NCBI GenBank assembly: GCA_021791715.1
Contig: JAJYWB010000031.1
Span: 1 to 64,000, forward strand
Reading direction: 5' to 3'
DNA: 64,000 bases
Source of the DNA: Planctomycetota bacterium
GTDB lineage: Bacteria; Planctomycetota; Planctomycetia; Isosphaerales; Isosphaeraceae
The notes under the pieces are model-generated. The model was not told the DNA's origin. It did not search any database and saw only the letters and a list, made by a program, of their open reading frames with translations. Made by a program: the position numbers and the translations under genes. Below are positions 2,033-27,124 of the stretch, piece by piece. Positions within the stretch are counted from its first letter, which is position 1, and each line of letters begins with the position of its first letter.

Positions 2033-2797
2033 GATGTTTGTTTCCTCGTTGTTTGGCGGCTGATCGATCGGTATTGTTCGCAAGCCGGTTCGGTTTTGCT
2101 GCGTAACGACAACAATTGTGAACAACCGACGGCTTCGACGCGGAACATAACGCCTTTCCGTGCGAGATTCGCTCACTGAATGCGTTACTTAACACCAAAT
2201 CTACTAAATCGAAAATCAAATGTCAATAGCGATGCCACTAAATTGCGTTATTAAAAGATTCGCTTCGTAACGAACACCACGGAGCCGCCGTTAATCCAAC
2301 CCCGCGTTCCGGCGAAGGGTTTCCGATAATCGCACGAACATTCTCAATTGATCATTCGATCGGTCACCTCGCCTACGCGTCGGGCCGGCTCGATTCATAC
2401 ACTTGTTGAACAAAAGATATTTTCACGGCGTGTGGAAGATCCGGACGAAGTCGCCGACGATTCGAGGCGAATCGTCAAGATAACAATTATTAATTGTTTT
2501 TTCAGAAATCGGTACTTTCTATTTGCGAAGGCCGACCCGCCGATATCGGGTTTCATTCTCAAAGGCCGGGGTTTATCGGGATTCGTTCCGGGTGGGACTC
2601 GCAAACCGTGAATAATGATTTCACTCCGAATCTTTATGATACAATTTATTATTAATATAAACATAATTTATTAATTATAATTTTATATAATTATTGTCGC
2701 AATCTCAACCGGGGCTTCGCTCGTCGGGTTTGACTCGAACCGCGGCCTCGGGCACAATTTGAACGCGAGCCCGAAACCACCGAGAGCGAACAGTCGC
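2033..2797. other. intergenic region with AT-rich block upstream of the C1 cluster
   Basis: This gap lies between two divergent genes. No convincing gene is present. A strongly AT-rich block at about 2620-2700 (TATGAT at 2635-2640, then repeated TTATTAATTATAA-like sequence) stands out against GC-rich surroundings. It is a plausible promoter or operator zone for the fhc genes. I could not identify a clear -35 box. Confidence 0.4.
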
Positions 2798-4201
2798 ATG
2801 CCGAATTCGATTCCCGAACCGCTTTCCGCCGCGAACGATCACGCCGCGTCGACGACCGCTCAGGCCGTCGTCGCCGACGTCGTCTGCCTGGGGTGCGGTT
2901 GCCTGTGCGACGACATCGAGGTCGTCGTCGATCGCGACCGCGAGAAACGGGCGATCGTCGCGACCAAAAACACGTGCGATCTCGGCGTTAAGTGGTTTGA
3001 GCGGGAAATCGTACAAACTTATGATTACCCGGCCATGATCGACGGCTCGCCCGCGACGATCGAAGCCGCGATCGAAAGATCGGCGAACATATTATCAACG
3101 GCGCGTCGGCCGCTCGTCCTCGGACTCGAAGGGTTGACGATCGAGGCGCAGCGGTCCGCGGTCGATCTCGTCGACGCGATCCGAGGGTTCCTCGTCACGC
3201 GGTCGCGTCCTGGAACCGATATCGCGCACCGCGCCGTCCAGCGGGTCGGGATCGTCGGCTGCACGCTCGGCGAGGTTCGACATCGCGCCGATCTGATCGT
3301 TCACTGGCGATCCGATCCCGTCGTCACTCATCCTCGCCACGGCGAACGCTACGGCGCGAACTCGATCGGTCGGTTCATTCCTCGAGGAAGAGCCGATCGC
3401 CGCGTGATCTCGGTCGACCTGGAACCGACCGCGACCGCGGCGCAAGCCGATGAATTTATCAAAATTTCTTCCGGAAACGAGTACGAAACGCTCGTCGTTT
3501 TGCGAGCGCTCGTGCGAGGCGCGCCGATCGATCGCGGTCGAGCCGAACGTCGAACGGGGATCGATTTTGATATTCTCAAACGGCTCTCCGAAACGCTCAA
3601 ATCGGCGCGTTACGGCGCATGGATTTGGGACGAGTCGAAGTATAATAATGAGAGCGATATTTTAACGATCGAATCGATCCTCGCGCTCGTCGGCGATTTG
3701 AACGAAACCTCTCGCTTCGTCGCGGTGGAACTGGGCGGATCGGCGAATCGAGCGGGGGCGACCGCGGTTTCAACGTGGCGGTCGGGATATCCTGGATCGG
3801 TCGATTTCGCTTCGGGGGCGCCTCGGTATTTACCGGAGATCGCCGATCCCGCGGCTCTGATCGAATCACGCGAGGTCGACGCGATTCTGACGTTCCAGAA
3901 CCTCGACTGGATCGCCGACCTTAACGCGATCAAACACGCCGCTCGGGTTCTGCCGACGATCGTCGTCTCTCACATGAACGAGCCTTCGGGATTCGTCCCG
4001 AGCGTTTCCATCGCGACGGCGTCTTTGGGGCTCAACGAAGAGGGAACGATCATTCGGGTCGACGGAGCGGCGCTTTCGCTCAATCCGCCTCTCGAATCGG
4101 ATCGACCGAGCGCCGCGATCATCATCAAGGAAATTCACAAGCAATTCGCCGCCGAACGGGCGCAAAAAAAAGACGATCGGATCGGAAATCGAACCTATTG
4201 A
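2798..4201 (+). CDS. fhcB: formyltransferase/hydrolase complex subunit B (formylmethanofuran dehydrogenase subunit B homologue)
   Basis: This is a homologue of the FwdB/FmdB subunit. In bacteria it is part of the cytoplasmic Fhc complex, which handles formyl-methylofuran in the H4MPT-linked C1 pathway. The N-terminus has Cys30, Cys33, Cys37 and Cys60 (VCLGCGCLCDDIE), the C-x2-C-x3-C-x22-C spacing of a [4Fe-4S] site. The family segment GCTLGEVRHRADLIVHW follows at about 154-170. The archaeal tungsten/molybdenum-ligating Cys or Sec, in a motif like SVCHGP just before that segment, is not present: the aligned stretch reads RSRPGTDIA. This fits a bacterial formyl-hydrolase role rather than CO2 reduction (inference). 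Start: ATG at 2798; a TTG at 2759 in frame is the alternative. It is separated from fhcA by an 800-bp gap, unlike the tight spacing of the later genes. Confidence 0.9.
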   Translation: MPNSIPEPLSAANDHAASTTAQAVVADVVCLGCGCLCDDIEVVVDRDREKRAIVATKNTCDLGVKWFEREIVQTYDYPAMIDGSPATIEAAIERSANILSTARRPLVLGLEGLTIEAQRSAVDLVDAIRGFLVTRSRPGTDIAHRAVQRVGIVGCTLGEVRHRADLIVHWRSDPVVTHPRHGERYGANSIGRFIPRGRADRRVISVDLEPTATAAQADEFIKISSGNEYETLVVLRALVRGAPIDRGRAERRTGIDFDILKRLSETLKSARYGAWIWDESKYNNESDILTIESILALVGDLNETSRFVAVELGGSANRAGATAVSTWRSGYPGSVDFASGAPRYLPEIADPAALIESREVDAILTFQNLDWIADLNAIKHAARVLPTIVVSHMNEPSGFVPSVSIATASLGLNEEGTIIRVDGAALSLNPPLESDRPSAAIIIKEIHKQFAAERAQKKDDRIGNRTY

Positions 4202-5003: not shown

Positions 5004-6662
5004 ATGTCTTTATTAAAGATTCAAGGCGGACGTGTGATCGATCCCGCGGAGGGGGTCGACGAGGTTCGCGACGTTTGGATTGCGAACGGCGTGATCGTCG
5101 CCGCTCCGGGCGATCCCGCGATTCGGCCGTCGCGGACGATCGACGCGCGCGGGTTCGTCGTGATGCCGGGCGGGGTCGATATGCATTGTCATCTCGCGGG
5201 ACCGAAGGTGAACGCGGGTCGAATGCTCGTCCCCGAGCTCAATCGTCGCGGTCGACCGATCGAACGAACCGAGCTGTTTCCCTCGGGATCTCTCGGACCC
5301 GTACCGACCGCCGCGGTCGCGGGAGCGCGGTACGCGGGGCTCGGCTACACGACCGCGATCGACGCCGCGGTCGCGCCTATGGGGGCGATTTCCGCGCGCA
5401 TGGAGCTCGCCGACGTTCCGTGTATCGATAAAGGCTTTCTTGTCCTTTTAGGGAATCATCATTATGTGATGGATGCGATTCGAAGGGGCGAAAAAGAGCG
5501 CCTTCGCGCCGCGGTCGCGTACATTCTCGAAAGCACGCGGGGGCTCGGAATCAAAATCGTCGATCCCGGCGGCGTCGAACGGTGGAAACAAGGGAAAGGA
5601 GCGGTCACCTCGCTCGACGATCAAGTTGAAGGGTTCGACGTCACTCCGCGAGCGATCCTTCAGGCTCTCGCCGAAGTCGCGGACGAACTCGCGCTGCCTC
5701 ATCCCGTTCATGTTCACTCGAATCATCTCGGCGTTCCCGGCAACCGACTGACGACGCTCGAAACGTTCAAGACGCTCGACGGACGACGCGCGCATTTCAC
5801 TCATGTTCAATTTCATAGTTATGGAGGCAAGCCCGACAACCCTGGATCGATCCGATCGGGCGTCGCCGAGCTCGCCGATTACGTGAACGCGCACGAGGGA
5901 ATCACCGTCGACGTCGGCCAGATCGTCTTCGGCGAAACGCTGTCGATGACGGCCGACGGACCCGCGGCGCACTATCTGAAAAAAATCACCGGCCGAAAGT
6001 GGCTTTCGCACGACGTCGAGCTCGAAACGGGATGCGGGGTTTCGCCGATCCGCTACGACGACAAAAGCCTGGTGCACGCGGTGCAGTGGGCGATCGGGCT
6101 CGAATGGTTCCTCGGCGTTTCGGACCCGTGGAAAATCGCGCTTTCGACCGATCATCCCAACGGAGGATCATTCTTATCGTATCCTCAAATCATAGCTCTT
6201 TTAATGGATCGAGGCTTACGGCGCGATTTTCTGCGGCGCTTGCCCGAGCGTGTTCGAAGCCGTTCGACGCTCGGCGATATGACTCGCGAGTACACGCTCG
6301 AGGAGATCGCGATCGTCACCCGCGCGGCGCCGGCGAGAATTTTGGGGCTTGGGAACAAGGGAAGGTTAAGCCCCGGCGCCGACGGCGACGCGGCGATCTA
6401 CGCTCCCGATTCCGATCGCGAAAGGATGTTCACATTACCAAAATACGTGATCGCTCGAGGCGAGATCGTGATCGAGAACGGCGAGTTTCGCGCGGCGCCC
6501 GCGGGAAGGTTGATTCGCGTCGAGCCGGCTTACGACCGCGACGCCGCGACCGAGTTCCGGCGAACGTTCGCGGAATCGTCGACGATCGCCGCTTCGCGTT
6601 TTCAACCGCAACCCGATCCAACGCACGAGGAGATCACGGCCCCTTGTCAAAAGAACATTTAG
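5004..6662 (+). CDS. fhcA: formyltransferase/hydrolase complex subunit A (formylmethanofuran dehydrogenase subunit A homologue)
   Basis: This amidohydrolase-fold subunit, homologous to FwdA/FmdA, hydrolyses the formyl group of formyl-methylofuran to formate in the bacterial Fhc complex. The 552-residue length is normal for the family. Visible landmarks are the metal-binding HxH in GGVDMHCHLAGPK (about residues 55-67), further histidines in HPVHVHSNHLG (about 232-242), and STDHPNGGSFLSYPQ near residue 390, with the family's catalytic Asp. Start: ATG at 5004 with AGGA 9 nt upstream. fhcD follows 15 bp later, so A, D, C and mch form one transcription unit. It acts in the cytoplasm. Confidence 0.95.
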   Translation: MSLLKIQGGRVIDPAEGVDEVRDVWIANGVIVAAPGDPAIRPSRTIDARGFVVMPGGVDMHCHLAGPKVNAGRMLVPELNRRGRPIERTELFPSGSLGPVPTAAVAGARYAGLGYTTAIDAAVAPMGAISARMELADVPCIDKGFLVLLGNHHYVMDAIRRGEKERLRAAVAYILESTRGLGIKIVDPGGVERWKQGKGAVTSLDDQVEGFDVTPRAILQALAEVADELALPHPVHVHSNHLGVPGNRLTTLETFKTLDGRRAHFTHVQFHSYGGKPDNPGSIRSGVAELADYVNAHEGITVDVGQIVFGETLSMTADGPAAHYLKKITGRKWLSHDVELETGCGVSPIRYDDKSLVHAVQWAIGLEWFLGVSDPWKIALSTDHPNGGSFLSYPQIIALLMDRGLRRDFLRRLPERVRSRSTLGDMTREYTLEEIAIVTRAAPARILGLGNKGRLSPGADGDAAIYAPDSDRERMFTLPKYVIARGEIVIENGEFRAAPAGRLIRVEPAYDRDAATEFRRTFAESSTIAASRFQPQPDPTHEEITAPCQKNI

Positions 6663-6677: not shown

Positions 6678-7604
6678 ATGAACATTCATAATGTCGAAAT
6701 CATTGATACGTTCGCCGAGGCGTTCCCGATGATCGCGGCGCGGGTTTTGGTGACCGCGGTTTCGGCCGAATGGGCTCGGATCGCCGCGACGACGGCGACG
6801 GGTTACGCCACGTCGGTGATCGGCTGCGACGCCGAGGCGGCGATCGAGCGCGATCTTTCGGTCGCCGAGACGCCCGACGGTCGTCCCGGAGTGAGTTTGC
6901 TTTTCTTCGCGTTCGGGCGCGACGCGCTCGAGAAGGCGGTCGTCAATCGCATCGGCCAGTGCGTGATGACTTGCCCGACGACCGCGTGTTACAACGGTCT
7001 TACCGTCGGCGAGAAGTCGATTCAGGTCGGCGGCAAGCTGCGGTTTTTCGGCGATGGATTTCAGATCTCGAAGAAGCTCGGCGATCGCCGGTTTTGGCGG
7101 ATCCCGGTGATGGATGGAGAATTCACGTGTGAAGATCTTTTTGGAACGGTGAAGGGAGTCGCGGGAGGGAACGTGTTGATCGTCGGGCGGAACTCGCGGT
7201 CGACGCTCGAAGCCGCGACGGCCGCGGTCGCGGCGATTCGGTCGATCCCCGGCGTGATCGCTCCGTTTCCAGGAGGTATCGTCCGCTCGGGATCGAAAGT
7301 CGGGAGCAAATACAAGGCGCTGCGCGGGTCGACGAACACCGCGTACTGCCCCACGTTGCGCGGAACGGCGGCGACCGAACTCCCAAACGGCGCATCGTGT
7401 GTTTATGAAATTGTTTTTGACGGTCTCGATCTCGAACGAGTCGAGCGTGCGACCGCGGCGGCGATCCGCGCCGCGAGTATCGCCGAGATCGCGGCGATCA
7501 CCGCGGGGAATTACGGCGGCAAGCTCGGGCCTTTTCATATCAAACTTCATGACGTTCTGAACCGATATCCGCGCGAGGAGGCCGAGCCTTGTCCTGGAAG
7601 CTGA
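6678..7604 (+). CDS. fhcD: formylmethanofuran:H4MPT formyltransferase (Fhc complex subunit D)
   Basis: This Ftr homologue moves the formyl group between methylofuran and tetrahydromethanopterin. Its 308 residues match the usual length of about 300. Recognisable segments include IDTFAEAFPMIAARVLVTA near the N-terminus, GQCVMTCPTTACYNGL near residue 96, and GGNVLIVGRNSRSTLEAA in the middle. It lies between fhcA (15 bp upstream) and fhcC, with which it overlaps by 16 bp, so translation is probably coupled. In the bacterial complex FhcD is a structural partner of FhcA, FhcB and FhcC (established for methylotrophs). Confidence 0.95.
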   Translation: MNIHNVEIIDTFAEAFPMIAARVLVTAVSAEWARIAATTATGYATSVIGCDAEAAIERDLSVAETPDGRPGVSLLFFAFGRDALEKAVVNRIGQCVMTCPTTACYNGLTVGEKSIQVGGKLRFFGDGFQISKKLGDRRFWRIPVMDGEFTCEDLFGTVKGVAGGNVLIVGRNSRSTLEAATAAVAAIRSIPGVIAPFPGGIVRSGSKVGSKYKALRGSTNTAYCPTLRGTAATELPNGASCVYEIVFDGLDLERVERATAAAIRAASIAEIAAITAGNYGGKLGPFHIKLHDVLNRYPREEAEPCPGS

Positions 7605-8431
7605 TCCCTCGACCGCTCGTCGATCGGTCGTCGCTCGATCTTTCGGCGATCCAACCCGATCGTTTCCGCGATCTCGACGTCGACGCGGTCGCCCGCGTTC
7701 GGCTCGGTCTGGGGAACGAACCGATCGAACTTGGAGAATGTTTTGATATCGAAGGAGCGGGAGGAGACGATTTCGTCGAGATCGCCGGATCGGTTAAAAC
7801 GTCGATCTATCTTGGAATAGGTATGAAATCGGGAATTTTGCGGGTCTCGGGCGATTGTGGACGATTGACGGGGGTCGAGGCCGAGGGGGGGACGATCGAC
7901 GTCGCGGGATCGGTCGGTTTCGGCGCGGGGTCGGCGATGCGCGGGGGGTTGTTGCGGGTTCAAGGAGACGCGGGCTCGGGGCTCGGCGGAGCTTATCCCG
8001 GGAGTTCGATCGGGATGCGCGACGGGACGATTCTGGTCGCGGGTTCGGCGGGAGACGACGTCGGTTTGGCGATGCGTCGCGGGTTGATCGCGATCGGCGG
8101 GTCGGCGGGCGCGGGGACGGGGCGATCGATGATCGCGGGGTCGATTTTTGTCGCGGGAACCGTCGCCAAAGGAACGGGGGCGGGAATGAAACGCGGAACA
8201 ATCGTTTTAATGGATGAAAACACGTTGATCGACGAGGCGGTTTCGCCGACGTTCGCCGCGACGGGTCGATTTCGGCCGCACTTCCTGGCGATTTACCTGC
8301 GCCGGCTCGACGAACTCGGGTTCGCGGTTGATCCGCGACTGTTCGGGTGCGAGTGCGAGCGGTACAATGGCGATCTGATCGAACGAGGAATCGGCGAGAT
8401 TCTGGTTTGCAATCCTTATTCAGTTACATGA
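7589..8431 (+). CDS. fhcC: formyltransferase/hydrolase complex subunit C
   Basis: This homologue of FwdC/FmdC is related to the C-terminal beta-helix domain of glutamate synthase. The protein is dominated by glycine-rich turns of a right-handed beta-helix (about residues 70-215: repeated G-x-I/L-x-V-x-G-x-x-G patterns such as GGTIDVAGSVGFGAGSAMRG). Start: TTG at 7589, supported by GAGGAGG a few bases upstream and by overlap with the end of fhcD. The stop at 8429-8431 lies 12 bp before the mch start. In the characterised bacterial complex this subunit carries the methylofuran as a prosthetic group (established for Methylorubrum); I infer the same here. Confidence 0.93.
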   Translation: MSWKLIPRPLVDRSSLDLSAIQPDRFRDLDVDAVARVRLGLGNEPIELGECFDIEGAGGDDFVEIAGSVKTSIYLGIGMKSGILRVSGDCGRLTGVEAEGGTIDVAGSVGFGAGSAMRGGLLRVQGDAGSGLGGAYPGSSIGMRDGTILVAGSAGDDVGLAMRRGLIAIGGSAGAGTGRSMIAGSIFVAGTVAKGTGAGMKRGTIVLMDENTLIDEAVSPTFAATGRFRPHFLAIYLRRLDELGFAVDPRLFGCECERYNGDLIERGIGEILVCNPYSVT

Positions 8432-8443
8432 TTGTTAATCAAT

Positions 8444-9388
8444 ATGAAATTAAATAAAAACACACAAATTTTGGTCGAGCGTCTTTTGGAATCCGCCGGG
8501 TCGCGGCGCGTGAGCTTTAACCCGATTGAAAGAGGAGGGCGTTTGATCGATTGCGGAGTCGAAGCGGCCGGCGGATTCGCCGCGGGGCTCGATCTCGCTC
8601 GTATTTGTATGGCGGGGCTCGGCGAGGTCGCGATCGTTCCTGCGCCGTTGGGAGATTCGGTTCTTCCCCACGTTCAGGTGACGACCGATTCTCCCGTCGC
8701 GGCGTGTTTGGCGAGCCAGTATGCGGGCTGGGCGCTCAAGCACGAAAAGTTTTTCGCGATGGGTTCGGGTCCGATGCGCGCCGCGGCGGGTCGCGAGCCG
8801 ATCTTCGAGCGGATCGGTTTGCGGGAAAGCGCGAGCTCGGTCGTCGGCGTTCTCGAGGGTCGAAAGCTTCCGGCCGCCGAGGTTTTCATCAAGATCGCCG
8901 AGGCGTGTGGAATTGAGCCGGCGAATGTCGATTTGTTGATCGCGCCGACGGCGAGCGTCGCGGGAGGGATTCAGATCGTCGCGCGGTCGGTTGAAACCGC
9001 GATGCATAAACTCGCCGAAATCGGCTTTGATCTGAATCTCATCGTCGCGGCGCACGGGATCGCTCCGATTCCTCCGGTCGCGAAGAACGACCTCGCGGCG
9101 ATCGGCAGGACGAACGACGCGATCCTTTACGGTGCGCGGGTTCGGCTTCTGGTTCGAGGCGACGACTCGGCGATCGAACGATTCGGCCCGCAAACTCCGT
9201 CGTGCTCGTCGCGCGATCACGGCGAGCCGTTCTCGGCGCTATTCGAACGCTACGACCGCGATTTTTACAAGGTCGATCCCTCGCTGTTCAGCCCCGCCGC
9301 GGTGACGTTTGAAAATATCGACACAGGGAATTTGTTCTCGTACGGCGCGGTCGAACCGACGATCGTCGCCCGATCTTTCAGCTCGTAA
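8444..9388 (+). CDS. mch: methenyltetrahydromethanopterin cyclohydrolase
   Basis: The enzyme interconverts 5,10-methenyl-H4MPT and 5-formyl-H4MPT, the step next to FhcD. The 314-residue length fits the family. Landmarks are MAGLGEVAIVPAPLGDSVLP (about residues 63-82), ASQYAGWALKHEKFFAMGSG, TASVAGGIQIVARSVETAMHK and GRTNDAILYGARVRL near residue 225, all typical of Mch. Start: ATG at 8444 is preferred over an in-frame TTG at 8432 that sits right against the fhcC stop. It is followed after 32 bp by the ATP-grasp gene. Confidence 0.95.
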   Translation: MKLNKNTQILVERLLESAGSRRVSFNPIERGGRLIDCGVEAAGGFAAGLDLARICMAGLGEVAIVPAPLGDSVLPHVQVTTDSPVAACLASQYAGWALKHEKFFAMGSGPMRAAAGREPIFERIGLRESASSVVGVLEGRKLPAAEVFIKIAEACGIEPANVDLLIAPTASVAGGIQIVARSVETAMHKLAEIGFDLNLIVAAHGIAPIPPVAKNDLAAIGRTNDAILYGARVRLLVRGDDSAIERFGPQTPSCSSRDHGEPFSALFERYDRDFYKVDPSLFSPAAVTFENIDTGNLFSYGAVEPTIVARSFSS

Positions 9389-9420: not shown

Positions 9421-10311
9421 ATGCATAAGATCGTCATTTTGGCGAGCGGATTCGGCGGGCATGTCGACGATCTTCTTCGCGCCGCGGCGGCTCTTAACGT
9501 ATCGGCGCGGGCCGTTCGATTTCCGACGATCGCCGGGGAATTGAACGGTTCGGCGGGGTCGCGTTTGTTCTCGGCGGGTTCGCCGTTGACCGATTGCGAC
9601 GGCGTGATCGTGCGGATGATGCCTCCGGGAAGTCTCGAACAGGTCGTGTTCCGGATGGACGCGTTGCACGAGCTTGAGGCGATCGGGATTCCGACTCTCA
9701 ATCCGCCGCGCGCGATCGAGGTTTCGGTCGATAAATTCCTGGCCTCGGCGCGGATCGCGCGGAGCGGGCTTTCGGTTCCACCGACATGGGTGGGAGAATC
9801 GGCGGCCGAGGCGATCGACGCGTTCGATCGGTTGGGAGGCGACGTCGTCGTCAAACCGCTGTTCGGCTCGGAGGGACGAGGAATGACGCGGATCGACGAC
9901 CGCCAGATCGCGATCCGCGCGTTCACGACGCTCGAACGGTTAAACTCGATCCTATATTTACAGAAATACATTCATCATGAAGGGTTTGATTTGCGTTTGT
10001 TTGTATTGGGATCGGAGGTGATCGGAGCGATGCGTCGGTTCGTCGCGGCGGGGGATTGGCGGACGAACGTCGCCGCGGGGGGACGAGCCGAGGCGTGGAC
10101 TCCCCCCGTCGAGTTCGAGCGGATCGCGCTTCGAGCCGCGGAGGCGGTCGGAGCGATCATGGCGGGGGTCGATCTCGTCGTCGATCGAGCGACGGGAACG
10201 ATCCATGTTCTCGAGGTGAACGCCGCGCCGGGTTGGAGGGCGCTCGCGGCGACGACGGGAGTCGACGTCGCGGCCCGAATCGTCGAAAAGGTTAAGAATT
10301 TATGTCGTTAG
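9421..10311 (+). CDS. ATP-grasp ligase of the H4MPT cluster (RimK/MptN-like)
   Basis: This 296-residue protein has an ATP-grasp fold of the RimK type. The nucleotide-binding segment VVVKPLFGSEGRGMTRIDD lies at about 141-159, YLQKYIHHEGFDLRLFVLG near 178-196, and the metal-binding EVNAAPGWRAL at about 263-273. RimK-like enzymes attach glutamate or other amino acids to small molecules or proteins; the archaeal relative MptN adds glutamate to H4MPT. Position between mch and the CitG-like gene suggests a role in H4MPT or methylofuran (polyglutamate) synthesis. That assignment is inference. The last 10 bp overlap the next gene. Confidence 0.82.
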   Translation: MHKIVILASGFGGHVDDLLRAAAALNVSARAVRFPTIAGELNGSAGSRLFSAGSPLTDCDGVIVRMMPPGSLEQVVFRMDALHELEAIGIPTLNPPRAIEVSVDKFLASARIARSGLSVPPTWVGESAAEAIDAFDRLGGDVVVKPLFGSEGRGMTRIDDRQIAIRAFTTLERLNSILYLQKYIHHEGFDLRLFVLGSEVIGAMRRFVAAGDWRTNVAAGGRAEAWTPPVEFERIALRAAEAVGAIMAGVDLVVDRATGTIHVLEVNAAPGWRALAATTGVDVAARIVEKVKNLCR

Positions 10312-11222
10312 ATTTAAATATTAACGGTTATTCTCGCGGATCGATCGCCAGCCGGGCCTGCGTGATCGAGGCGAGCGCTCCCAAGCCGGGAAACGTCGGT
10401 CCCGAACGTCCGTTCGCCGACATGACGTTCAAAGATATGATAAAGAGCGCCGAGGCGATCGTCGATCCGTTCGATCGCGCGGTCGAACTCGGAGTCGGCG
10501 GAACGATTCTCGCGGCGGTCGAGCGGACGCGGTCGTCGGTGTGCAAGAACACGAATTTGGGGATGATTTTGGCGCTCGCTCCGCTCGCGTCGGTACCGAA
10601 CGGCGTAGCGATTCGCGATGGAATCGGCCGCGTGCTCGCCGAGCTCACCGTCGAGGACGCCCGGCTCGCTTACGAGGCGATACGGCTCGCCGAGCCCGGA
10701 GGCCTGGGAACTTCGGACGAACAGGACGTCGCACGGCCGCCGACGGTGAACTTGCTCGCCGCGATGACGATCGCGCGCGATCGAGATCTCATCGCGCGCC
10801 AATACGCGAATTCCTATGAGGATGTGTTTGATATGCTCGATCGCGTGTTCAAGCCGGCGATCCGCCGTGGGTTGTCGATTGATCGAGCCGTCGTACTCGC
10901 GTATTTGGATTCGTTGGCGCGGCATGCGGATTCGCTCGTGGCGCGGAAGCGCGGCGAGCGAGAGGCGAACGAGGTATCGCGGCGAGCGCGTTTGATTTTG
11001 GAGTCGAGCCCCGAAGCCGATCGTCCCGACGAGGCTCTCTTGAACGATTTTGACGCTTGGCTTCGCGAGGAAGGCGCGGGACGCAATCCGGGGGCGACGG
11101 CCGATCTGATCGCCGCGATGCTTTATACGGCGCTTGTCGAACGAACGATCGAGCCCTCGATCGAGTTTGATGCGGGGCGATCGAAAGCGATTCAGGTTTT
11201 CCCGACGCGCGAATTCGATTGA
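10302..11222 (+). CDS. CitG-like triphosphoribosyl-dephospho-CoA synthase family protein
   Basis: The protein resembles the CitG/MdcB family, which makes the prosthetic-group precursor 2'-(5''-triphosphoribosyl)-3'-dephospho-CoA. Two family motifs are visible: EASAPKPGNVGPERPFADM (about residues 24-42) and VCKNTNLGMILALAPLA (about 80-96). No citrate lyase or malonate decarboxylase genes lie nearby. Instead it overlaps the ATP-grasp gene and closes a C1 cluster, so the product is probably a C1-cofactor or prosthetic-group precursor (inference). Start: ATG at 10302 inside the end of the previous gene, indicating translational coupling. Confidence 0.75.
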   Translation: MSLDLNINGYSRGSIASRACVIEASAPKPGNVGPERPFADMTFKDMIKSAEAIVDPFDRAVELGVGGTILAAVERTRSSVCKNTNLGMILALAPLASVPNGVAIRDGIGRVLAELTVEDARLAYEAIRLAEPGGLGTSDEQDVARPPTVNLLAAMTIARDRDLIARQYANSYEDVFDMLDRVFKPAIRRGLSIDRAVVLAYLDSLARHADSLVARKRGEREANEVSRRARLILESSPEADRPDEALLNDFDAWLREEGAGRNPGATADLIAAMLYTALVERTIEPSIEFDAGRSKAIQVFPTREFD

Positions 11223-12807: not shown

Positions 12808-12835
12808 TTGAGCCGTCGGGCGAATCGCGTATGAT
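12808..12835 (+). promoter_or_regulatory. probable promoter of the nuo operon
   Basis: TTGAGC at 12808-12813 and TATGAT at 12830-12835 are separated by 16 bp, close to the sigma70 consensus. The site lies about 90 bp upstream of nuoA, the first gene of a 14-gene co-directional block. Confidence 0.5.
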
Positions 12836-12926
12836 CTTCTCGTCGACACGATCCCGGCGTGACGCCGGAATTTTTTTGGGCCGACTTTGTGAAAGTGTTC
12901 ACGATCCGAGACGAAGCGGAAATTAC

Positions 12927-13388
12927 ATGATAGCATCTGGATCTGAATTCGAGCCCGTCTTTATTTTTGTCGTGATCGGTTTGCTGGTCGCGATCGGGAT
13001 GTTGACGGTGAGCGCGGTATTGGGTCCGCGGAAGACGACCGCGGTGAAGCAGATGCCGTACGAATCGGGCATGGATCCGATCGGCGACGCGCGGAACCGG
13101 TTCGACGTGCGGTATTACCTGGTGGCGATCGTCTTTCTGCTTTTCGACGTCGAACTGTTATATTTATATCCGTGGGCTGTATCACATTGGAGCGCGTCGA
13201 CGGCGACCGCGACGATCGATTCGGACGATTCGGCGGCGACGACTTCGGCCGCGGAGCCCGCCTTCCCCCCGCCGGGAATTCCGCCGACCTTGCGAAAAGT
13301 CGTCTTGTTCGACGTTCTCGTATTTATCGCGGTGTTGGCCGCGGCGTTCGCCTACGCGTGGCGTAAGGGGGTTTTCGAATGGCGGTAG
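12927..13388 (+). CDS. nuoA: NADH-quinone oxidoreductase subunit A
   Basis: This small membrane subunit of complex I has three expected transmembrane helices: about residues 10-32, 66-86 and 127-147. The family segment KQMPYESGMDPIGDARNRFDV is visible between helices 1 and 2. The loop between helices 2 and 3 carries an Ala/Ser/Thr/Pro-rich insertion of about 35 residues (around 90-122), making the protein 153 residues, longer than many homologues. Start: ATG at 12927; the frame is open further upstream but without family similarity. The end overlaps nuoB by 10 bp. Confidence 0.93.
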   Translation: MIASGSEFEPVFIFVVIGLLVAIGMLTVSAVLGPRKTTAVKQMPYESGMDPIGDARNRFDVRYYLVAIVFLLFDVELLYLYPWAVSHWSASTATATIDSDDSAATTSAAEPAFPPPGIPPTLRKVVLFDVLVFIAVLAAAFAYAWRKGVFEWR

Positions 13389-14092
13389 AAGCCGAGGGGA
13401 ATCATGCTCCGGAGATTCTGACGAATCTTCCGGGGGTCGGCGTCGGTTCCGGAGAGGCGCTTGAGCCCCCGCCGAACACGTTCATCACCCGCGCCGAGGA
13501 TGTGATCGATTATTGCGTCAATTATGGACGTAAATACAGTTTATGGCCGATGCCGTTCGCGACGGCGTGCTGCGGGATCGAATTGATGGCGGTCGGCGCG
13601 AGCCGGTTCGACATCGCGCGGTTCGGCGCCGAGGTGATGCGTTTCAGCCCTCGTCAATGCGATTTGTTGATCGTCGCGGGACGGGTCGTGATGAAAATGC
13701 TTCCCGTGCTCCAGCGGATCTGGCTTCAAATGCCCGAACCCAAATGGTGCATCAGCATGGGGGCTTGCGCGAGCACGGGTGGAATTTTTGATACGTACGC
13801 GGTCGTGCAAGGGGTCGACCGTTTCATCCCGGTCGACGCGTACATCCCCGGCTGCCCCCCCCGCCCCGAGCAAATACTTCGCTCGATTCTCGACCTTCAG
13901 GGCAAGATTCAACGGGGCGGATCGCTCAACGGCACGGCGCTTCCAGAGATGGTCGCTTACGAGAAAAGCCTCGAAGCGAAACGTCATGCGCTCGCCGCGG
14001 GGAAAACGACGCTCGAACGAGGCGACGAAGAACGCTACGGCTACCGTTTGCCGGGGGGCCAGGCCCAAATCGGCGGCGGAGAATCGCTTTAA
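13379..14092 (+). CDS. nuoB: NADH-quinone oxidoreductase subunit B
   Basis: This complex I subunit carries cluster N2, the last iron-sulfur cluster before quinone. The ligand cysteines are visible: the CC pair in FATACCGIEL (Cys64, Cys65), then GACAS and IPGCPPRPE further on. The 237 residues include an N-terminal extension of about 35 residues before the conserved core and a C-terminal tail of about 50. The start overlaps nuoA. It is followed by a 92-bp gap and nuoC. Confidence 0.95.
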   Translation: MAVEAEGNHAPEILTNLPGVGVGSGEALEPPPNTFITRAEDVIDYCVNYGRKYSLWPMPFATACCGIELMAVGASRFDIARFGAEVMRFSPRQCDLLIVAGRVVMKMLPVLQRIWLQMPEPKWCISMGACASTGGIFDTYAVVQGVDRFIPVDAYIPGCPPRPEQILRSILDLQGKIQRGGSLNGTALPEMVAYEKSLEAKRHALAAGKTTLERGDEERYGYRLPGGQAQIGGGESL

Positions 14093-14184
14093 TTGACGAA
14101 CGAAGAGGTTTACGCGTCGATTCGACGCGGGCGAGCGTTCGCCCGACCGATCGACGCCGGGGCGCCCGACCGCACGGAATCGAC

Positions 14185-14727
14185 ATGACCGCAACCGCGA
14201 ACCGATCGGACACGATCGACAAGCACGCCGCGACGCTCGCCGATCTGGAAAAACACTTCGGCTCGGGCGTGTTCACATGCTCGAATTTCCTCGATCAAAC
14301 GCGCATTCATGTTTCCGCCGATCGAGCCTTCGAGATCCTCGCCCGACTGAAGAATTCGCTGGGTTTTTCGATGCTCGTCGAACTCGGCGGGGTCGATTAT
14401 CTCGGTTATCCGCAACGATCGCGGCCGCGGTACGAGATCGTTTACATCGTTCTCAATCTCGATACGACCGAACGCTTGATCGTCCGAGCGACGCTCGCCG
14501 ATCATCCCTCGCCCGAGATCGCGTCGGTCGTTCCGCTTTGGCCGGGGGCGAACTGGATGGAACGAGAGGTTTACGATATGTACGGCATTCGCTTTATTGG
14601 ACATCCCGATTTGAGGCGAATTTTGATGCCGGAGGAATTCACCGCTTTTCCCCTGCGGAAAGATTATCCGTTGCGGGGACGGGGCGAGCGGCACAATTTC
14701 ACGCGGATCGCGCGGAGCGATTCATGA
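14185..14727 (+). CDS. nuoC: NADH-quinone oxidoreductase subunit C
   Basis: This 30-kDa-type peripheral-arm subunit of complex I has 180 residues. The diagnostic segment WPGANWMEREVYDMYGIRF is at about 114-132, followed by HPDLRRILMPEEF and PLRKDYPLRG. It is separate from nuoD, not fused as in enterobacteria. Start: ATG at 14185. A 150-bp gap with a short direct repeat (AAAAGCGACCGCGGC) precedes nuoD. Confidence 0.95.
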   Translation: MTATANRSDTIDKHAATLADLEKHFGSGVFTCSNFLDQTRIHVSADRAFEILARLKNSLGFSMLVELGGVDYLGYPQRSRPRYEIVYIVLNLDTTERLIVRATLADHPSPEIASVVPLWPGANWMEREVYDMYGIRFIGHPDLRRILMPEEFTAFPLRKDYPLRGRGERHNFTRIARSDS

Positions 14728-14877
14728 TCGCGGAGCGATTGGTTCGAAAAAGCGACCGCGGCGTCGACGCGTTGCGGAAAAGCGACCGCGGCTTCGACGG
14801 GATCGGATTGAAACGACGGCGACGATCGCACGCGGCCGAGCCGCGTCGGTTCGGTGAAAGCGAGACGGGGGGGATTC

Positions 14878-16098
14878 ATGCCGGTTAATTTAATCGACGA
14901 ACCCGAGATCGGGGTCGAAAGTAAAGAATATCTCTGGACGCTCAACTTCGGCCCGCAACACCCCGCGACGCACACGACCTTGCGGCTCGTGCTCGAACTC
15001 GACGGCGAACGGATCGTCCGCGCCACGCCCCACATCGGCTACCTTCATTCGGGATTCGAGAAGCTCGGCGAGCACTTGAATTTCAATCAATACGTCACCG
15101 TCGTCGATCGGATGAATTACATCAGTCCGCCGATGAACGAGGTCGCGTGGCATCACGCGGTCGAAAAACTGCTCGGCATCGAATTGACGCCGCGCTGCAA
15201 GTACATTCGCGTCATCATCGGCGAGCTCGCGAGGATCAGCGATCACCTCCTGTGCACGGGCGCCGCGGCGCTCGATCTGGGGGCGTTCACCGCGTTCTTG
15301 TACGCGTTTAATCAACGCGAGCAGATTTATGATGTTTATGAGCAAATGTCGGGATATCGATTTCATCCCGGTTATACGCGAGTCGGCGGAGTGCTTTACG
15401 ACTTCAACGATCGGGTGATCTCGTACGTGCGCCGGGTGCTCGATTCGCTTCCGAAAACGTTCGCCGACATGGAGAAGCTTTTGTTTCGCAACCGGATCTT
15501 CCTCGACCGGATGCGGGGCGTCGGGGTGCTTTCGAAAGAAGACGCGATCGGCTTGTCGTGCACGGGTCCGATCGCGCGAGCGTGCGGAATTCCTTATGAT
15601 CTCCGCAAGGACGAGCCTTATCTCGCCTATTCCGATTTTGATTTTCAGGTGCCGATCGCGTTCGAGGGGGATTGTTACGCGCGGTTCCAGGTGCGGATGG
15701 AGGAGATGACTCAGAGCGTGCGAATTATCAAGCAAGCACTTGAGAATCTTCCTTCGGGTCCAGCGAATACGCCGATCGCCGAGAAGTTCCCCCTCCCCGA
15801 TAAACCGACGACATACAACAGCATGGAGGGGCTGATACAGCATTTCGAGCTGATCATGCCCAATCGCGGATTCGAAAGCCCGCGCGGCGAGGCTTACGGA
15901 GCGGTCGAGGGCCCCAACGGCGAGCTCGGCTATTACGTCGTTTCGGACGGTACGCAGACCGCGTGGCGGGCGCGCACACGACCTCCGTCGTTCATCCATT
16001 TTCAAGTGTTTCCTCATATTATTAAGGATCACTTGATCGCCGACGTCGTCGCGGTTCTCGGCAGTCTCAACATCATCGCCGCCGAGCTCGATCGTTAA
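14878..16098 (+). CDS. nuoD: NADH-quinone oxidoreductase subunit D
   Basis: This 49-kDa-type subunit forms the quinone-binding pocket with NuoB. Landmarks are FGPQHPATHTTLRLVLELDG near residue 24, HIGYLHSGFEKLGE near 53, YHAV/RMNYISPPMNE near 78 and GDCYARFQVRMEEM near 265. The length of 406 residues is typical. The start at 14878 follows a run of seven G; an upstream GTG at 14854 is less likely. It ends 53 bp before nuoE. Confidence 0.95.
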   Translation: MPVNLIDEPEIGVESKEYLWTLNFGPQHPATHTTLRLVLELDGERIVRATPHIGYLHSGFEKLGEHLNFNQYVTVVDRMNYISPPMNEVAWHHAVEKLLGIELTPRCKYIRVIIGELARISDHLLCTGAAALDLGAFTAFLYAFNQREQIYDVYEQMSGYRFHPGYTRVGGVLYDFNDRVISYVRRVLDSLPKTFADMEKLLFRNRIFLDRMRGVGVLSKEDAIGLSCTGPIARACGIPYDLRKDEPYLAYSDFDFQVPIAFEGDCYARFQVRMEEMTQSVRIIKQALENLPSGPANTPIAEKFPLPDKPTTYNSMEGLIQHFELIMPNRGFESPRGEAYGAVEGPNGELGYYVVSDGTQTAWRARTRPPSFIHFQVFPHIIKDHLIADVVAVLGSLNIIAAELDR

Positions 16099-16151
16099 AC
16101 GCCGAATCGACTGCTTACAAGAAAGATTCACGACCTATTAGGAATCGGGAT

Positions 16152-16670
16152 ATGTCCGTTGAAACGTCGATCGAATCGAAGCCGACGCTTCTGAGCGAAT
16201 CGCTCCGCGAGCGAATTCTCGCGTATGTGCCGCGGTATCCGTCGAAGCGCGCCGTCGTGCTTCCGGCGCTTCATCTGGTTCAGGAACTGTTTCGTTGCGT
16301 GCCCTACAAGGCGATGGAGGAGATCGCCCAATTGCTCGACGTCGCTCCCGCCGAGGTGCACGATACGATGAGCTTTTACGGGTTTTTCACCCAGGCGCCG
16401 ACGGGTGAGAAACGCGTGTGGATGTGTCGATCGATCTCGTGCATGTTGCGCGGGGGGGACGAGCTGATCGATCGAGCGTGCTCGAAGCTGGGGATCGAAC
16501 CCGGAGGCGCCTCGGCCGACGGATCGATCTCGATCGTTCCCGCCGAATGCTTGGGGATCTGCGATTACGCTCCCGCGGCGCTGTGCGACGACGGCCGAAT
16601 TTTCGGCCCGCTCGACGACGCCTCGACCGACGCGATGCTCGCCGAAATTCGAGGCGGGAAATCGACCTGA
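16152..16670 (+). CDS. nuoE: NADH-quinone oxidoreductase subunit E
   Basis: This thioredoxin-like [2Fe-2S] subunit of the NADH-input module has ligands in CRSISC (C-x4-C) and, about 35 residues later, in ECLGICDYAP (C-x3-C), as expected for cluster N1a. Its 172 residues are typical. Its presence with nuoF and nuoG shows that this is the NADH-oxidising 14-subunit form, not the 11-subunit type. Confidence 0.95.
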   Translation: MSVETSIESKPTLLSESLRERILAYVPRYPSKRAVVLPALHLVQELFRCVPYKAMEEIAQLLDVAPAEVHDTMSFYGFFTQAPTGEKRVWMCRSISCMLRGGDELIDRACSKLGIEPGGASADGSISIVPAECLGICDYAPAALCDDGRIFGPLDDASTDAMLAEIRGGKST

Positions 16671-16902
16671 AACGAACGAATTTCGCTCGGCTTGGCGACG
16701 ACCCTTGTCCCCCTCGAAGCCGAACGAACCTTGAGGCGAACCGATATTGATACTTGATGATTGTGGATTGAAGGATCGCGATCACGGGATTCGCGAGTCA
16801 AGACGCATAAACGAATAAAGGCGACCGCAGGGACGATGAGAACGAATAAGACGAGCCGAATCGACGCCGCGAACCCGAGCGACCGACGAACGCCGCCCCC
16901 GA

Positions 16903-18330
16903 ATGGAGAACTCATCCGTGTCGAACTTTGAACCGGTACTGAGCCGCAACTGGAACGTCGCCGATTCGCACACGCTCAAGGTGTACGAATCGCGGGGGGG
17001 TTATCGCTCGGCCCGCAAGGCGCTGACCGAGCTCGACCCCGACAAGGTCGTGACGATCGTCAAAGATTCCGAACTTCGCGGTCGAGGGGGGGCGGGATTT
17101 CCCTGCGGCATGAAATGGGGCTTCCTTCCCAAAGATCGTAAACAAACGTTGATGTGCATCAACGCCGACGAGAGCGAGCCCGCGACGTTTAACAATCGGA
17201 TTCTTATGGAGAAGGATCCGCATCAGTTGATCGAGGGAATCGTTCTCGGGTGTTTCGCGACGCGGGCGACGACGGCTTATCTTTACATTCGGTTTGAATA
17301 TATTCACGCGTTCCGGGTTTTAGAGGCGGCGATCGCCGAGGCCCGCGCCGCGGGGCATCTGGGGAAAAACATTTACGGGTCGGGGTTCGATCTCGAAATC
17401 TGGGTGCATCGCGGCGCGGGGGCTTACATTTGCGGCGAGGAGACGGGACTGATCGAAAGCCTCGAGGGAAAACGGGGCTGGCCGAGGATCAAGCCCCCCT
17501 TCCCCGCGGTCGACGGAGCGTTCCATCACCCGACCGTCGTCAACAACGTGGAAACGCTTTGCTGCGTTCCGCATATCATCGAACGTGGCGCCGATTGGTT
17601 CAAATCGATCGGCACGCCGAAAAGCTACGGCCCCAAGCTTTATTGCGTATCGGGGCACGTGAACAAGCAAACGTGCGTCGAGCTGCCGCTCGGGGTCACG
17701 TGTCGCGAGCTGATCGACGTTCACGGCGGCGGCGTTTGGAAGGGTCGAAAGGCGAAGGCCGCGGTTCCCGGAGGGATCAGCATGGGGCTCCTCTCGGCCG
17801 CCGAACTCGACACCCCGCTCGATTTCGAGAGCCTCCGCAAACCGGGTTGCCTCGGCCTCGGCACCGCCGCGGTCACGGTGATCGACGATCACACGCCTAT
17901 TATTGATTATTTGTACAACACATCGCGATTTTTCGCCCACGAGAGCTGCGGCCAGTGCACTCCGTGTCGCGAGGGGACGGGATGGATGTATAAGATGATC
18001 AAGCGGATCAAGGCGGGAGGGGGACGGATCGAGGATCTCGACCAGATGGCGACTTTCGCGAACAATCTTGGCATCATGCCGGGGACGACGATCTGCGGGC
18101 TCGCCGACGGCGCGGCCTGGCCTGTTAAAAACGCGATCGCCAAGTTCCGCGGCGAGCTCGAAGAATACATCCGCGCGAATCAGAATCCCGCCCACGCGGT
18201 GAAACCGATTCAGACCGCGATCGCGCAGGGACGCGTCGTCGATCTCGCGGCGCTCGCGCTTTCGGCGGGAACGGTCCCCGCGCTCCCCTCCAACGATTTA
18301 CTGTCCGACGGTTCCTCACACGCGCGTTAA
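16903..18330 (+). CDS. nuoF: NADH-quinone oxidoreductase subunit F
   Basis: This subunit carries FMN, the NADH site and cluster N3. Visible are the nucleotide-binding GRGGAGFPCGMKWGF (about 61-75; the usual Thr after FP is Cys here), CGEETGLIESLEGKRG near 180, and the [4Fe-4S] motif SCGQCTPCREGTGW near 350 with a further Cys in TTICGLADGAAWP. Length 475 residues, with about 30 residues beyond the core at the C-terminus. It lies 11 bp before nuoG. Confidence 0.95.
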   Translation: MENSSVSNFEPVLSRNWNVADSHTLKVYESRGGYRSARKALTELDPDKVVTIVKDSELRGRGGAGFPCGMKWGFLPKDRKQTLMCINADESEPATFNNRILMEKDPHQLIEGIVLGCFATRATTAYLYIRFEYIHAFRVLEAAIAEARAAGHLGKNIYGSGFDLEIWVHRGAGAYICGEETGLIESLEGKRGWPRIKPPFPAVDGAFHHPTVVNNVETLCCVPHIIERGADWFKSIGTPKSYGPKLYCVSGHVNKQTCVELPLGVTCRELIDVHGGGVWKGRKAKAAVPGGISMGLLSAAELDTPLDFESLRKPGCLGLGTAAVTVIDDHTPIIDYLYNTSRFFAHESCGQCTPCREGTGWMYKMIKRIKAGGGRIEDLDQMATFANNLGIMPGTTICGLADGAAWPVKNAIAKFRGELEEYIRANQNPAHAVKPIQTAIAQGRVVDLAALALSAGTVPALPSNDLLSDGSSHAR

Positions 18331-18341
18331 GGTTTTAATCG

Positions 18342-20087
18342 ATGACGACGATTTACATCGACGGCGACGAGTTCACGTTGGAAAACGGTGAACATATCAA
18401 CGCGATTCAGGCCGCGGCGCGGTTCGGGATCGAGATTCCCTATTATTGCTGGCATCCCGCGCTTTCGGTCGTCGCCAATTGCCGGATGTGCGAGGTCGAG
18501 GTCGGTTCGCGCGATCCCAAGACGGGGGAGATCCGGATGCTCCCCAAACTTGTTCCCGCGTGCCAAACGCCCGCGAAGGATCAAACCGTTTTGGTGACGA
18601 AAAGCCCGAAGGTTCTCGAGCATCGGCGGATGATCATGGAGCTTTTGTTGCTCAATCACCCGCTCGACTGCCCCGTCTGCGACCAGGCTGGGGAATGCGG
18701 GCTGCAAGATTTCAGCTACGATCACGGCCGCGCCGAACATCGATTCGTCGAAACCCGCAACGTGAACCCGCGGAAAGACGTCTCCGATCAAATTCAATTG
18801 AATTCGGATCGGTGTATTATGTGCACGCGATGCGTGCGATTCACCCGCGAGATCACCCGAACCGGGGAGCTGCAGGTGATGCGTCGCGGCGAGCACGCCG
18901 AGATCGGCGTCTTCCCCGATCACGAGCTCGATAATCCGCTCGCGGGCAACGTCGTCGATATTTGCCCCGTGGGCGCGCTTCTCGATAAAGACTTTTTACA
19001 CAAACAACGCGTTTGGTTTTTAAGCAAGCATAATTCGATTTGCACGGGTTGTTCGACGGGTTGCAACATCACGGTCGAGGAGAACAAAGGCGCGGCGTGG
19101 CGCCACAAACCTCGGTACAACCCGCATGTGAACGATTATTGGATTTGCGACGAGGGACGCCGCGGCTACAAGGTCGCGAACGATCCCGAGTTGTTGGACG
19201 CGACGTACGTGCTTGAGGACGGCGATCACCGCGCGACTCCGATCGATCAGGCGATCGCCGCGGTTTCGCGCAATCTGGCGTTGATCGCCCGCGAAGGGGG
19301 GAAAATCGCCGCGATCGTCTCGCCGTTTTTGACCGTCGAAGAGGCGTATTTGCTTTGCAAATATATTAAGACGATCAGTCCTTCAAGCGTTTTGGCGCTC
19401 GGCCCCGTTCCCCGATCGGGCGAAGACGCGACGTGGCTTCCCGATAAATCGCAGGGGCGCACGGGCGACGTGAGCTTCGTCGTGTGTCGACCGTTCACGA
19501 TCCGCGCCGAGAAGTGTCCCAATAGGCGCGGCGTCGAGGAGATCGTTCGTCATTTCCAGGGCGAGGTGATCGATTACGCGTCGATCGCGGCGCGGATCGG
19601 CGGCGGCGAGTTCCAGGCGGCGTACGTCACCTCGAACGCTCCCGAACCCGCGTTCGACGAGTCGACGGCGGCGACGATTCGCCGCGGCGTTTCGTTCCTG
19701 GTCGTACAAGACACGAGGGTCACTCCGCTCGCGAATCAGGCCGACGTCGTGCTCGCGGGAGGGACTTACGCCGAGAAGGCGGGGTGTTATGTGAATCACG
19801 ACGGTCGGTTGCAGTTCGCCGAGGCGGCGTTGCCGCCGCGCGAGGGGGTGTTGCCCGACCTCGACCTCTTCGCGATTTTACTCGAACGGGGCGCGGGCCC
19901 GATTCGGTCGTCCGAGGTTCTCGCCGAACTCGCCGCCGAGATCGACGTTTTCGCGGTCGCGGCGGGGGGACGACTTCCCGAATTCGGGGCGACGATCGGC
20001 GGCGCCGAGCCGAACGGAACCGCGCCCAAGAACGGCTCGGTTTATGAACAACTTTATCAAGATCCGTGGGCGGGCGCGCGGCGTTGA
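18342..20087 (+). CDS. nuoG: NADH-quinone oxidoreductase subunit G
   Basis: This is the peripheral-arm subunit with several iron-sulfur clusters. In order: a [2Fe-2S] domain (YYCWHPALSVVANCRMCEVE), the His-Cys3 segment (CPVCDQAGECGLQDF), two [4Fe-4S] motif parts (CIMCTRCVRF and CPVGAL), then CTGCSTGCNI with a later Cys in WICDEGR, the pattern of the extra N7-type cluster found in some bacteria. The molybdopterin-like domain that follows is shortened, giving 581 residues against about 900 in Escherichia coli. That length is common in other phyla. Confidence 0.94.
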   Translation: MTTIYIDGDEFTLENGEHINAIQAAARFGIEIPYYCWHPALSVVANCRMCEVEVGSRDPKTGEIRMLPKLVPACQTPAKDQTVLVTKSPKVLEHRRMIMELLLLNHPLDCPVCDQAGECGLQDFSYDHGRAEHRFVETRNVNPRKDVSDQIQLNSDRCIMCTRCVRFTREITRTGELQVMRRGEHAEIGVFPDHELDNPLAGNVVDICPVGALLDKDFLHKQRVWFLSKHNSICTGCSTGCNITVEENKGAAWRHKPRYNPHVNDYWICDEGRRGYKVANDPELLDATYVLEDGDHRATPIDQAIAAVSRNLALIAREGGKIAAIVSPFLTVEEAYLLCKYIKTISPSSVLALGPVPRSGEDATWLPDKSQGRTGDVSFVVCRPFTIRAEKCPNRRGVEEIVRHFQGEVIDYASIAARIGGGEFQAAYVTSNAPEPAFDESTAATIRRGVSFLVVQDTRVTPLANQADVVLAGGTYAEKAGCYVNHDGRLQFAEAALPPREGVLPDLDLFAILLERGAGPIRSSEVLAELAAEIDVFAVAAGGRLPEFGATIGGAEPNGTAPKNGSVYEQLYQDPWAGARR

Positions 20088-20169
20088 TCGATTTTTTAGG
20101 AACGGCTCGCGTCGGCTTCGGCGCGGCGGTTGAAAGACGTGGATTCAGGGCGAGAGGGCGGGGTCGAAG

Positions 20170-21237
20170 ATGTTGACATTCCTCGGTTTGACGGCTCTTT
20201 TGATCAAAATCGGTCTGGTCGTGGGGATCAGCCAGGGGGCGGTCGCGTACCTGATCTACGTCGAGCGTAAAATCGCGGCGTACGCGCAGGATCGGATCGG
20301 CCCCAACCGCTGCGGACGCGAGTTCGGCGTTCCGCTCGGGCTCATTCAGCCCCTCGCCGACGGCGCCAAAATGATCCTCAAGGAAGACGTTATTCCCAAG
20401 TATGTTCATAAGCCAACGTTCATCTTGGCGCCGATGATCGCGATCGTGACGGCGACGATCGGGTTCGCGGTCGTTCCATTCGGCCCGGTCGGCGCGGGAG
20501 CGCCTCGGCTCGGCGCCGATTGGCCGGTGCAGTTTCAGATCGCGCCCGGCGTCGATATCGGGATCGTCTACATCCTGGCGATCGGCAGCCTCGCGGTTTA
20601 CGCGGTCGTGCTCGCGGGCTGGTCGTCGAACAACAAATACTCGTTTCTTGGCGGGTTACGTTCGAGCGCGCAATTGATCAGTTACGAGATTCCGATGGGG
20701 CTTTCGATCCTGGGGATCGTGCTGCTCGCCAAATCGCTCGATCTCAACACGATCATCGAATGGCAGGATCGCCACGGCTGGGGGATCTTCTGGCAGCCCG
20801 TCGGGTTCCTGATTTTTCTCGTGAGCGCGTTCGCCGAGACGAACCGCTTGCCGTTCGATCTTCCCGAGTCCGAACAGGAGCTCGTCGGCGGGTTTCACAC
20901 CGAATATTCGGCAATGAAATTCGGCATGTTTTTCCTTGGAGAATATTTGCATGTGATCACGGTTAGTTTTCTGACGGTGATTCTTTTCTTCGGCGGGTGG
21001 GATTTGCCGTTCGTGCTGAGCGCCGATCAGACGAGCTGGATCTCGGCGATCTTCAAGGTGATCGTCATGATGTCGAAGGTTTCGTTGATGATCGTCTTTA
21101 TTATGTGGATTCGTTGGACACTGCCGCGGTTTCGCTACGACACGCTGATGAATCTGGCCTGGAAGTCGTTGCTTCCGCTCGGGCTGTTGAATTTGACGAT
21201 CACCGCGGTGGCGGCGCAGATGATCCTCGGCGGTTGA
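20170..21237 (+). CDS. nuoH: NADH-quinone oxidoreductase subunit H
   Basis: This membrane subunit links the quinone site to the proton-pumping arm. It has about eight hydrophobic helices in 355 residues. Family segments are visible: ERKIAAYAQDRIGPNRCG (about 36-53), ADGAKMILKEDVIP, and FAETNRLPFDLPESEQELVG near 220, followed by GFHTEYSAMKFGMFFLGEY. It is followed by nuoI after 47 bp. Confidence 0.95.
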   Translation: MLTFLGLTALLIKIGLVVGISQGAVAYLIYVERKIAAYAQDRIGPNRCGREFGVPLGLIQPLADGAKMILKEDVIPKYVHKPTFILAPMIAIVTATIGFAVVPFGPVGAGAPRLGADWPVQFQIAPGVDIGIVYILAIGSLAVYAVVLAGWSSNNKYSFLGGLRSSAQLISYEIPMGLSILGIVLLAKSLDLNTIIEWQDRHGWGIFWQPVGFLIFLVSAFAETNRLPFDLPESEQELVGGFHTEYSAMKFGMFFLGEYLHVITVSFLTVILFFGGWDLPFVLSADQTSWISAIFKVIVMMSKVSLMIVFIMWIRWTLPRFRYDTLMNLAWKSLLPLGLLNLTITAVAAQMILGG

Positions 21238-21284
21238 AAAGAGGGCGAAGCGGAGCGGGCGGAAGTTCCTTTTGGGAGAGAACG

Positions 21285-27121: not shown

Positions 27122-27124
27122 CCC

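Follow-up and report, generated by a model that had tools for sequence, protein, structure and literature searches.

The CitG-like partner in a planctomycete version of the methylotroph orf5-orf7 gene pair is a candidate for a missing step of H4MPT synthesis

Methanogens, methane-oxidising archaea and many methylotrophs use H4MPT (tetrahydromethanopterin) as their central one-carbon carrier. The molecule contains two ribose-derived units, and its deoxyribitol bears on the 5-hydroxyl an alpha-ribofuranosyl 5-phosphate in phosphodiester linkage with hydroxyglutarate. We know of no gene that has been assigned to the step adding the second sugar. In the synthesis of the citrate lyase prosthetic group, CitG links the ribose of ATP, through C1, to the 2'-hydroxyl of dephospho-CoA and releases adenine. 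The new bond is alpha and the product bears a 5-triphosphate, from which CitX forms a phosphodiester. The first ribose-derived unit of H4MPT is made from PRPP by RFAP synthase (MptG) (PMC6787355), and the bacterial form, dephospho-H4MPT, differs only in having no phosphate and no hydroxyglutarate (PMC8141765). Most non-pterin steps of the pathway were without genes in 2011, with about seven biosynthetic proteins unidentified (PMC3087415).

The gene order mch-orf5-orf7-fae (fae1 in Methylosinus trichosporium) is a named gene island of methylotrophs (PMC3615186). In Methylorubrum extorquens the orf5 product, MyfB, is the methylofuran polyglutamate ligase: when orf5 is deleted methylofuran does not grow beyond two glutamates, overexpression gives chains of as many as 40, and polyglutamate is produced by the protein in purified form (PMC8141765). 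Orf7 is not mentioned in that study, and the literature searched, outside which lie two J. Bacteriol. papers of 2005 that deal with these genes, gave neither a published function for Orf7 nor any paper connecting CitG or COG1767 with methanopterin. Databases annotate Orf7-type relatives as triphosphoribosyl-dephospho-CoA synthase of the citrate lyase type.

The window analysed here is a stretch of 64,000 nucleotides from a bacterium of the Planctomycetota, in which fhcB, fhcA, fhcD, fhcC, mch, a RimK-type ATP-grasp gene and a CitG-family gene form an operon-like run on the + strand (Table 1). The last two open reading frames overlap by 10 bp, and the gene that follows them starts at 11478. Both frames and their Pfam matches bear out the original prediction of an ATP-grasp and CitG-like pair at the end of an H4MPT cluster. 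Its placing of the pair beside mch and fhcC is correct for mch, which lies directly upstream, but not for fhcC, which adjoins mch. A long run resembling the nuo (complex I) operon, judged from translations, occupies positions 12831-28696 and begins about 1.6 kb past the CitG gene. CitG, MptG and MfnB are each present once in the source genome (6.5 Mb, 92.5% complete), which at this completeness holds no PF06857 acyl carrier protein of the citrate lyase (CitD) or malonate decarboxylase (MdcC) type.

Table 1. Genes of the fhc-mch run in the window, with profile scores
Gene	Position	Strand	Profile match
fhcB	2759..4201	+	TIGR03129 305 bits, slightly below cut-off 328
fhcA	5004..6662	+	TIGR03121 652 bits, cut-off 393
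fhcD (Ftr)	6678..7604	+	TIGR03119 429 bits, cut-off 293
fhcC	7589..8431	+	TIGR03122 183 bits, cut-off 131
mch, methenyl-H4MPT cyclohydrolase	8432..9388	+	TIGR03120 388 bits, cut-off 229
RimK-type ATP-grasp ligase (Orf5/MyfB type), 296 aa	9421..10311	+	PF08443 E 1.3e-29
CitG-family gene (Orf7 type), 306 aa	10302..11222	+	PF01874 E 3.8e-63

The pair is not new but is the planctomycete version of the methylotroph orf5-orf7. The order mch-orf5-orf7 in the window equals that of the named island (PMC3615186) and of proteobacterial records, and MptG and Mch accompany the CitG-family gene in the source genome. Plasmid records of alpha-, beta- and gammaproteobacteria have mch followed by a RimK ligase, a 'triphosphoribosyl-dephospho-CoA synthase' and fae, with MptG and mtdB upstream, and instances of the pair's order occur in Paraburkholderia, Phyllobacterium, Azospirillum, Thiodictyon and Azoarcus. 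The Azoarcus ligase is labelled hypothetical and is 39% identical to the window ATP-grasp protein, while in Azospirillum ramasamyi CitG follows mch with no ligase in between. The general proteobacterial arrangement is CitG after mch, usually ahead of fae, with MptG and mtdB nearby. Proteobacterial proteins in the Orf7 position belong to the same CitG subfamily as the window protein, at about 36-44% identity. Because the order mch-RimK-CitG recurs in other planctomycete families as well as in alpha-, beta- and gammaproteobacteria, the position of the pair is not a matter of chance.

By sequence and gene position, the ATP-grasp gene probably encodes a methylofuran polyglutamate ligase that would elongate the glutamate chain as in M. 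extorquens. Like MyfB, with which it was compared on these two grounds, the window protein is of the RimK ATP-grasp family and is encoded after mch, here between mch and orf7; it is 35-39% identical to the RimK proteins found between mch and CitG in proteobacteria. Its score against TIGR00768 (rimK_fam) is 194 bits, above the cut-off of 143. MptN (NF040720), the H4MPT:alpha-L-glutamate ligase, is its best-scoring named NCBIfam family at 229.7 bits, but this lies well below the equivalog cut-off of 350 and identity with MptN was rejected; a best match to MptN that stays below the cut-off is what is expected of a MyfB. Bacterial dephospho-H4MPT also lacks the hydroxyglutarate acceptor of an MptN (PMC8141765).

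The CitG-like protein matches PF01874 at 214 bits against a cut-off of 27, and scores 19-26 bits against four equivalog models (TIGR03125, TIGR03132, NF002315 and NF007503) whose cut-offs of 272-477 it does not reach. Of the marks of CitG/MdcB it has the Pfam family, and lacks the equivalog score, the carrier in the genome, the clade and the motifs. A maximum-likelihood tree splits H4MPT-type and archaeal proteins from CitG/MdcB with 100/100 support, and all H4MPT-type sequences lie on one side. The bacterial H4MPT group, including the proteobacterial Orf7-position proteins, has moderate support (79/87), and two archaeal rows on long branches are placed less surely within their side. Proteins of the H4MPT/archaeal side have in common an insert of about 25-30 residues and the motif NPGT..AD. 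The type to which the window protein belongs has NPGT[TS]AD where CitG/MdcB have PGGSAD, and its bacterial members differ further in N-x-N-x-G for N-x-H-x-G and KPGN or KxGN for KPGL. A frame of conserved residues is kept in both groups, which suggests that they have their ATP-ribosyl chemistry in common and differ at the acceptor site. The AlphaFold model of the window protein (pLDDT 88.5) has one PDB match below E 0.001, the 'putative triphosphoribosyl-dephospho-CoA synthase' 3h9p of Archaeoglobus fulgidus (TM 0.82-0.84 by target length). This protein shares the insert and the NPGT-AD motif and lies on the H4MPT/archaeal side of the tree; its identity to the window protein is about 30%, and the 3h9p chain is without the N-terminal part.

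A profile survey covered 214 Planctomycetota genomes and 14 control genomes, with archaea represented by control genomes and one plasmid record. CitG scored over the cut-off in 25 of the 214 planctomycetes, and 24 of these coincide exactly with the set that has both Mch and a strong match to MptG (RFAP synthase, which commits cells to H4MPT synthesis), counting as strong several MptG matches of 77-112 bits that lie below the TIGR00144 cut-off of 113.5 yet cover most of the model. CitG hits of 20 bits in four f17-family genomes and MptG hits of 22-26 bits in G014 and G144, all below cut-off, were discounted as noise. A Fisher test of the co-occurrence gives 3e-32, but since the 24 genomes come from only eight families and are not independent of one another, they represent far fewer effective events than 24. 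None of the 24, the source genome included, has a PF06857 carrier. The survey that the original prediction had called for, of CitG together with fhc genes where citrate lyase and malonate decarboxylase are lacking, is thus clean. The 25th genome, G205, carries PF06857 about 4 kb from its CitG, an apparent CitX-CitG fusion (L057 / G205:C66, L028) that groups with true CitG/MdcB; its citrate-lyase-type CitG and CitD-like carrier make it a useful contrast to the H4MPT type. FTR is present in all 24 CitG/MptG planctomycetes and in two further MAGs (G069 and G139) without Mch, MptG or CitG, where contamination, a remnant of the pathway or missing contigs could be the cause. In G077, G092, G134 and G186 there is a second FTR (FhcD) copy, which is divergent.

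Among the controls, CitG, MptG and DUF447 all match in M. jannaschii, M. acetivorans, H. volcanii and S. acidocaldarius. The one further control of the 14 with CitG is E. coli, which possesses citrate lyase and is the sole control with PF06857. The methanofuran markers FTR and MfnB are confined to the two methanogens, and CitG therefore tracks H4MPT rather than methylofuran. DUF447, a Pfam domain of unknown function, shows the same pattern across the control archaea as CitG and MptG. Sulfolobales have a folate analogue of methanopterin character (PMC3261824). Haloarchaea are regarded as folate users with an MptG homologue of different function (PMC8305020), so that haloarchaeal CitG may also have another role; this view does not account for the joint presence of CitG, MptG, DUF447 and Mch in Haloferax. 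CitG-like, DUF447 and MptG genes are carried by haloarchaea, as is Mch in Haloferax, and in the haloarchaeon Natrinema CitG overlaps DUF447 (L148:14920-16364). This gene set suggests that haloarchaea either have a carrier resembling H4MPT or have put one arm of the pathway to a new use.

The usual neighbour of CitG in planctomycetes is a pterin synthase of the PTPS family, which follows within about 110 bp or is fused to it in 18 of the 23 other H4MPT planctomycetes and also in 40 of another 77 loci that leave room for it. One fusion of CitG with PF01242 was confirmed by Pfam (L048 8517-9938, 473 aa), and a family search that identified the following gene as PTPS ruled out fae in this position. 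At some CitG loci further genes follow, for an SDR, a pterin carbinolamine dehydratase, a dihydropteroate-synthase-like protein and PabB. A MyfB-type gene adjoins CitG in 6 of the 23 and lies apart in 17, which rules out a dedicated two-gene module of CitG and ATP-grasp ligase. Elsewhere in the source genome, a DUF6513/pterin-binding protein, DUF447 and MptG are encoded with overlapping ends (G000:C38:25330-28825, L004:5331-8826) in what is likely to be its H4MPT core operon. Another of its contigs has a methylofuran run (G000:C11:42192-46445, L158:6193-10446) of PTPS, a 271-aa protein without a Pfam or NCBIfam family match, an MfnD-like ATP-grasp, MfnF and MfnE. The PTPS of this run is of the type found beside CitG in other genomes and is 52% identical to a CitG-linked PTPS. 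Neighbourhood alone consequently does not separate H4MPT from methylofuran, as such clusters mix cofactors, and PTPS adjacency is weakened as proof of the H4MPT arm.

A role for the CitG-like protein in H4MPT synthesis is very probable. The reading as an ordinary CitG or MdcB, serving citrate lyase or malonate decarboxylase through a carrier elsewhere in the genome, agrees with the PF01874 match and the annotation of relatives, but is refuted in practice by the absence of PF06857 from the 24 genomes, the sub-equivalog scores and a position outside the CitG/MdcB clade. The original prediction was right that CitG occurs here without citrate lyase: no PF06857 carrier is present in the source genome at its 92.5% completeness, and both enzymes were rejected as an explanation for the gene. 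It is very improbable that the protein makes triphosphoribosyl-dephospho-CoA or a similar compound for an undiscovered carrier, or serves an unrelated cofactor that happens to share the distribution of H4MPT. The residue frame in common with CitG would suit such a role, as would CitG in haloarchaea, which are thought to be without H4MPT, whereas the co-occurrence with RFAP synthase, exceptionless across 214 planctomycetes (G205 apart) and four control archaea, and the repeated operons with H4MPT genes speak against it. That the protein joins the ATP-grasp ligase in making or attaching methylofuran is improbable despite the overlap or adjacency with a MyfB-type gene in the window, in six of the 23 planctomycetes and in proteobacteria, the FTR of all 24 CitG/MptG genomes, and the CitG-type PTPS beside MfnF and MfnE in the source genome. 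H. volcanii and S. acidocaldarius have CitG with neither FTR nor MfnB, two FTR-bearing planctomycete MAGs have no CitG, 17 of 23 planctomycetes keep CitG away from MyfB, and neither a ribosyl nor a phosphoribosyl group belongs to the known structure of methylofuran (PMC8141765). The original prediction of a step for methylofuran or H4MPT thus stands as cofactor biosynthesis within this pathway, but a role of CitG in methylofuran is not supported, given Haloferax and Sulfolobus without methanofuran genes. Its coupling of CitG and ATP-grasp ligase into one step is not supported either, in view of the methylofuran role of MyfB and the pterin synthase next to most planctomycete CitG genes. Nor does the binding of methylofuran to Fhc, described as electrostatic contacts of the glutamate chain (PMC8141765), give reason to expect a covalent attachment of CitG/CitX type, as in its prosthetic attachment step. 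The best reading is that orf5 and orf7 serve two different cofactors of the same pathway, methylofuran in the case of MyfB and H4MPT in that of the CitG-like protein.

Within H4MPT synthesis, we consider with moderate confidence that the CitG-like protein is an H4MPT alpha-ribosyl(5-phosphate) transferase acting at the specific alpha-ribosyl step, with donor, acceptor and stereochemistry inferred. This bond is the best candidate step because the chemistry of CitG and CitX parallels the H4MPT tail. The enzyme would bind ATP and join C1 of its ribose, with loss of adenine, to a sugar hydroxyl, namely the 5-hydroxyl of 1-deoxyribitol in an H4MPT precursor (aminophenyl-deoxyribitol or a pterin adduct) rather than the 2'-hydroxyl of dephospho-CoA. 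The product would be an alpha-linked ribose bearing a 5-(tri)phosphate. Methanogens would then attach 2-hydroxyglutarate to that phosphate, formally by the phosphodiester chemistry of CitX, and bacteria, whose form of the cofactor is dephospho-H4MPT, would remove it. White's published pathway reportedly has PRPP as the donor for the second sugar, and the step could belong to another enzyme. Action at some other H4MPT or pterin step, such as (phospho)ribosylation of a pterin or arylamine intermediate before assembly, is unlikely, although any step of the pathway would agree with the PTPS fusion and adjacency and with nearby genes for carbinolamine dehydratase, a dihydropteroate-synthase-like protein and PabB. 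Of the two ribose units, RFAP synthase makes the first from PRPP (PMC6787355), which leaves the alpha-ribosyl bond as the obvious remaining transfer. A more tentative extension, which we hold at somewhat below even odds, is that archaeal and H4MPT-type CitG proteins together are the alpha-ribosyl enzyme of all H4MPT organisms, using ATP and not PRPP, and that haloarchaea with CitG, DUF447, MptG and Mch make an H4MPT-like carrier.

The CitG-like member of the pair is a strong candidate for a missing H4MPT step. If the assignment is true, a widespread family whose annotated reaction is wrong would gain a pathway and a concrete reaction. For annotation, orf7-type genes should not be taken as evidence for citrate lyase or malonate decarboxylase. 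Compared with the methylotroph islands, in which fae comes after orf7, the window pair follows fhcBADC-mch and has no fae after it, and many planctomycetes have a PTPS gene after CitG in the place that fae takes in the islands. Compared with citrate lyase, the H4MPT tail would be built by the same ribosyl-then-phosphodiester chemistry as the prosthetic group of that enzyme.
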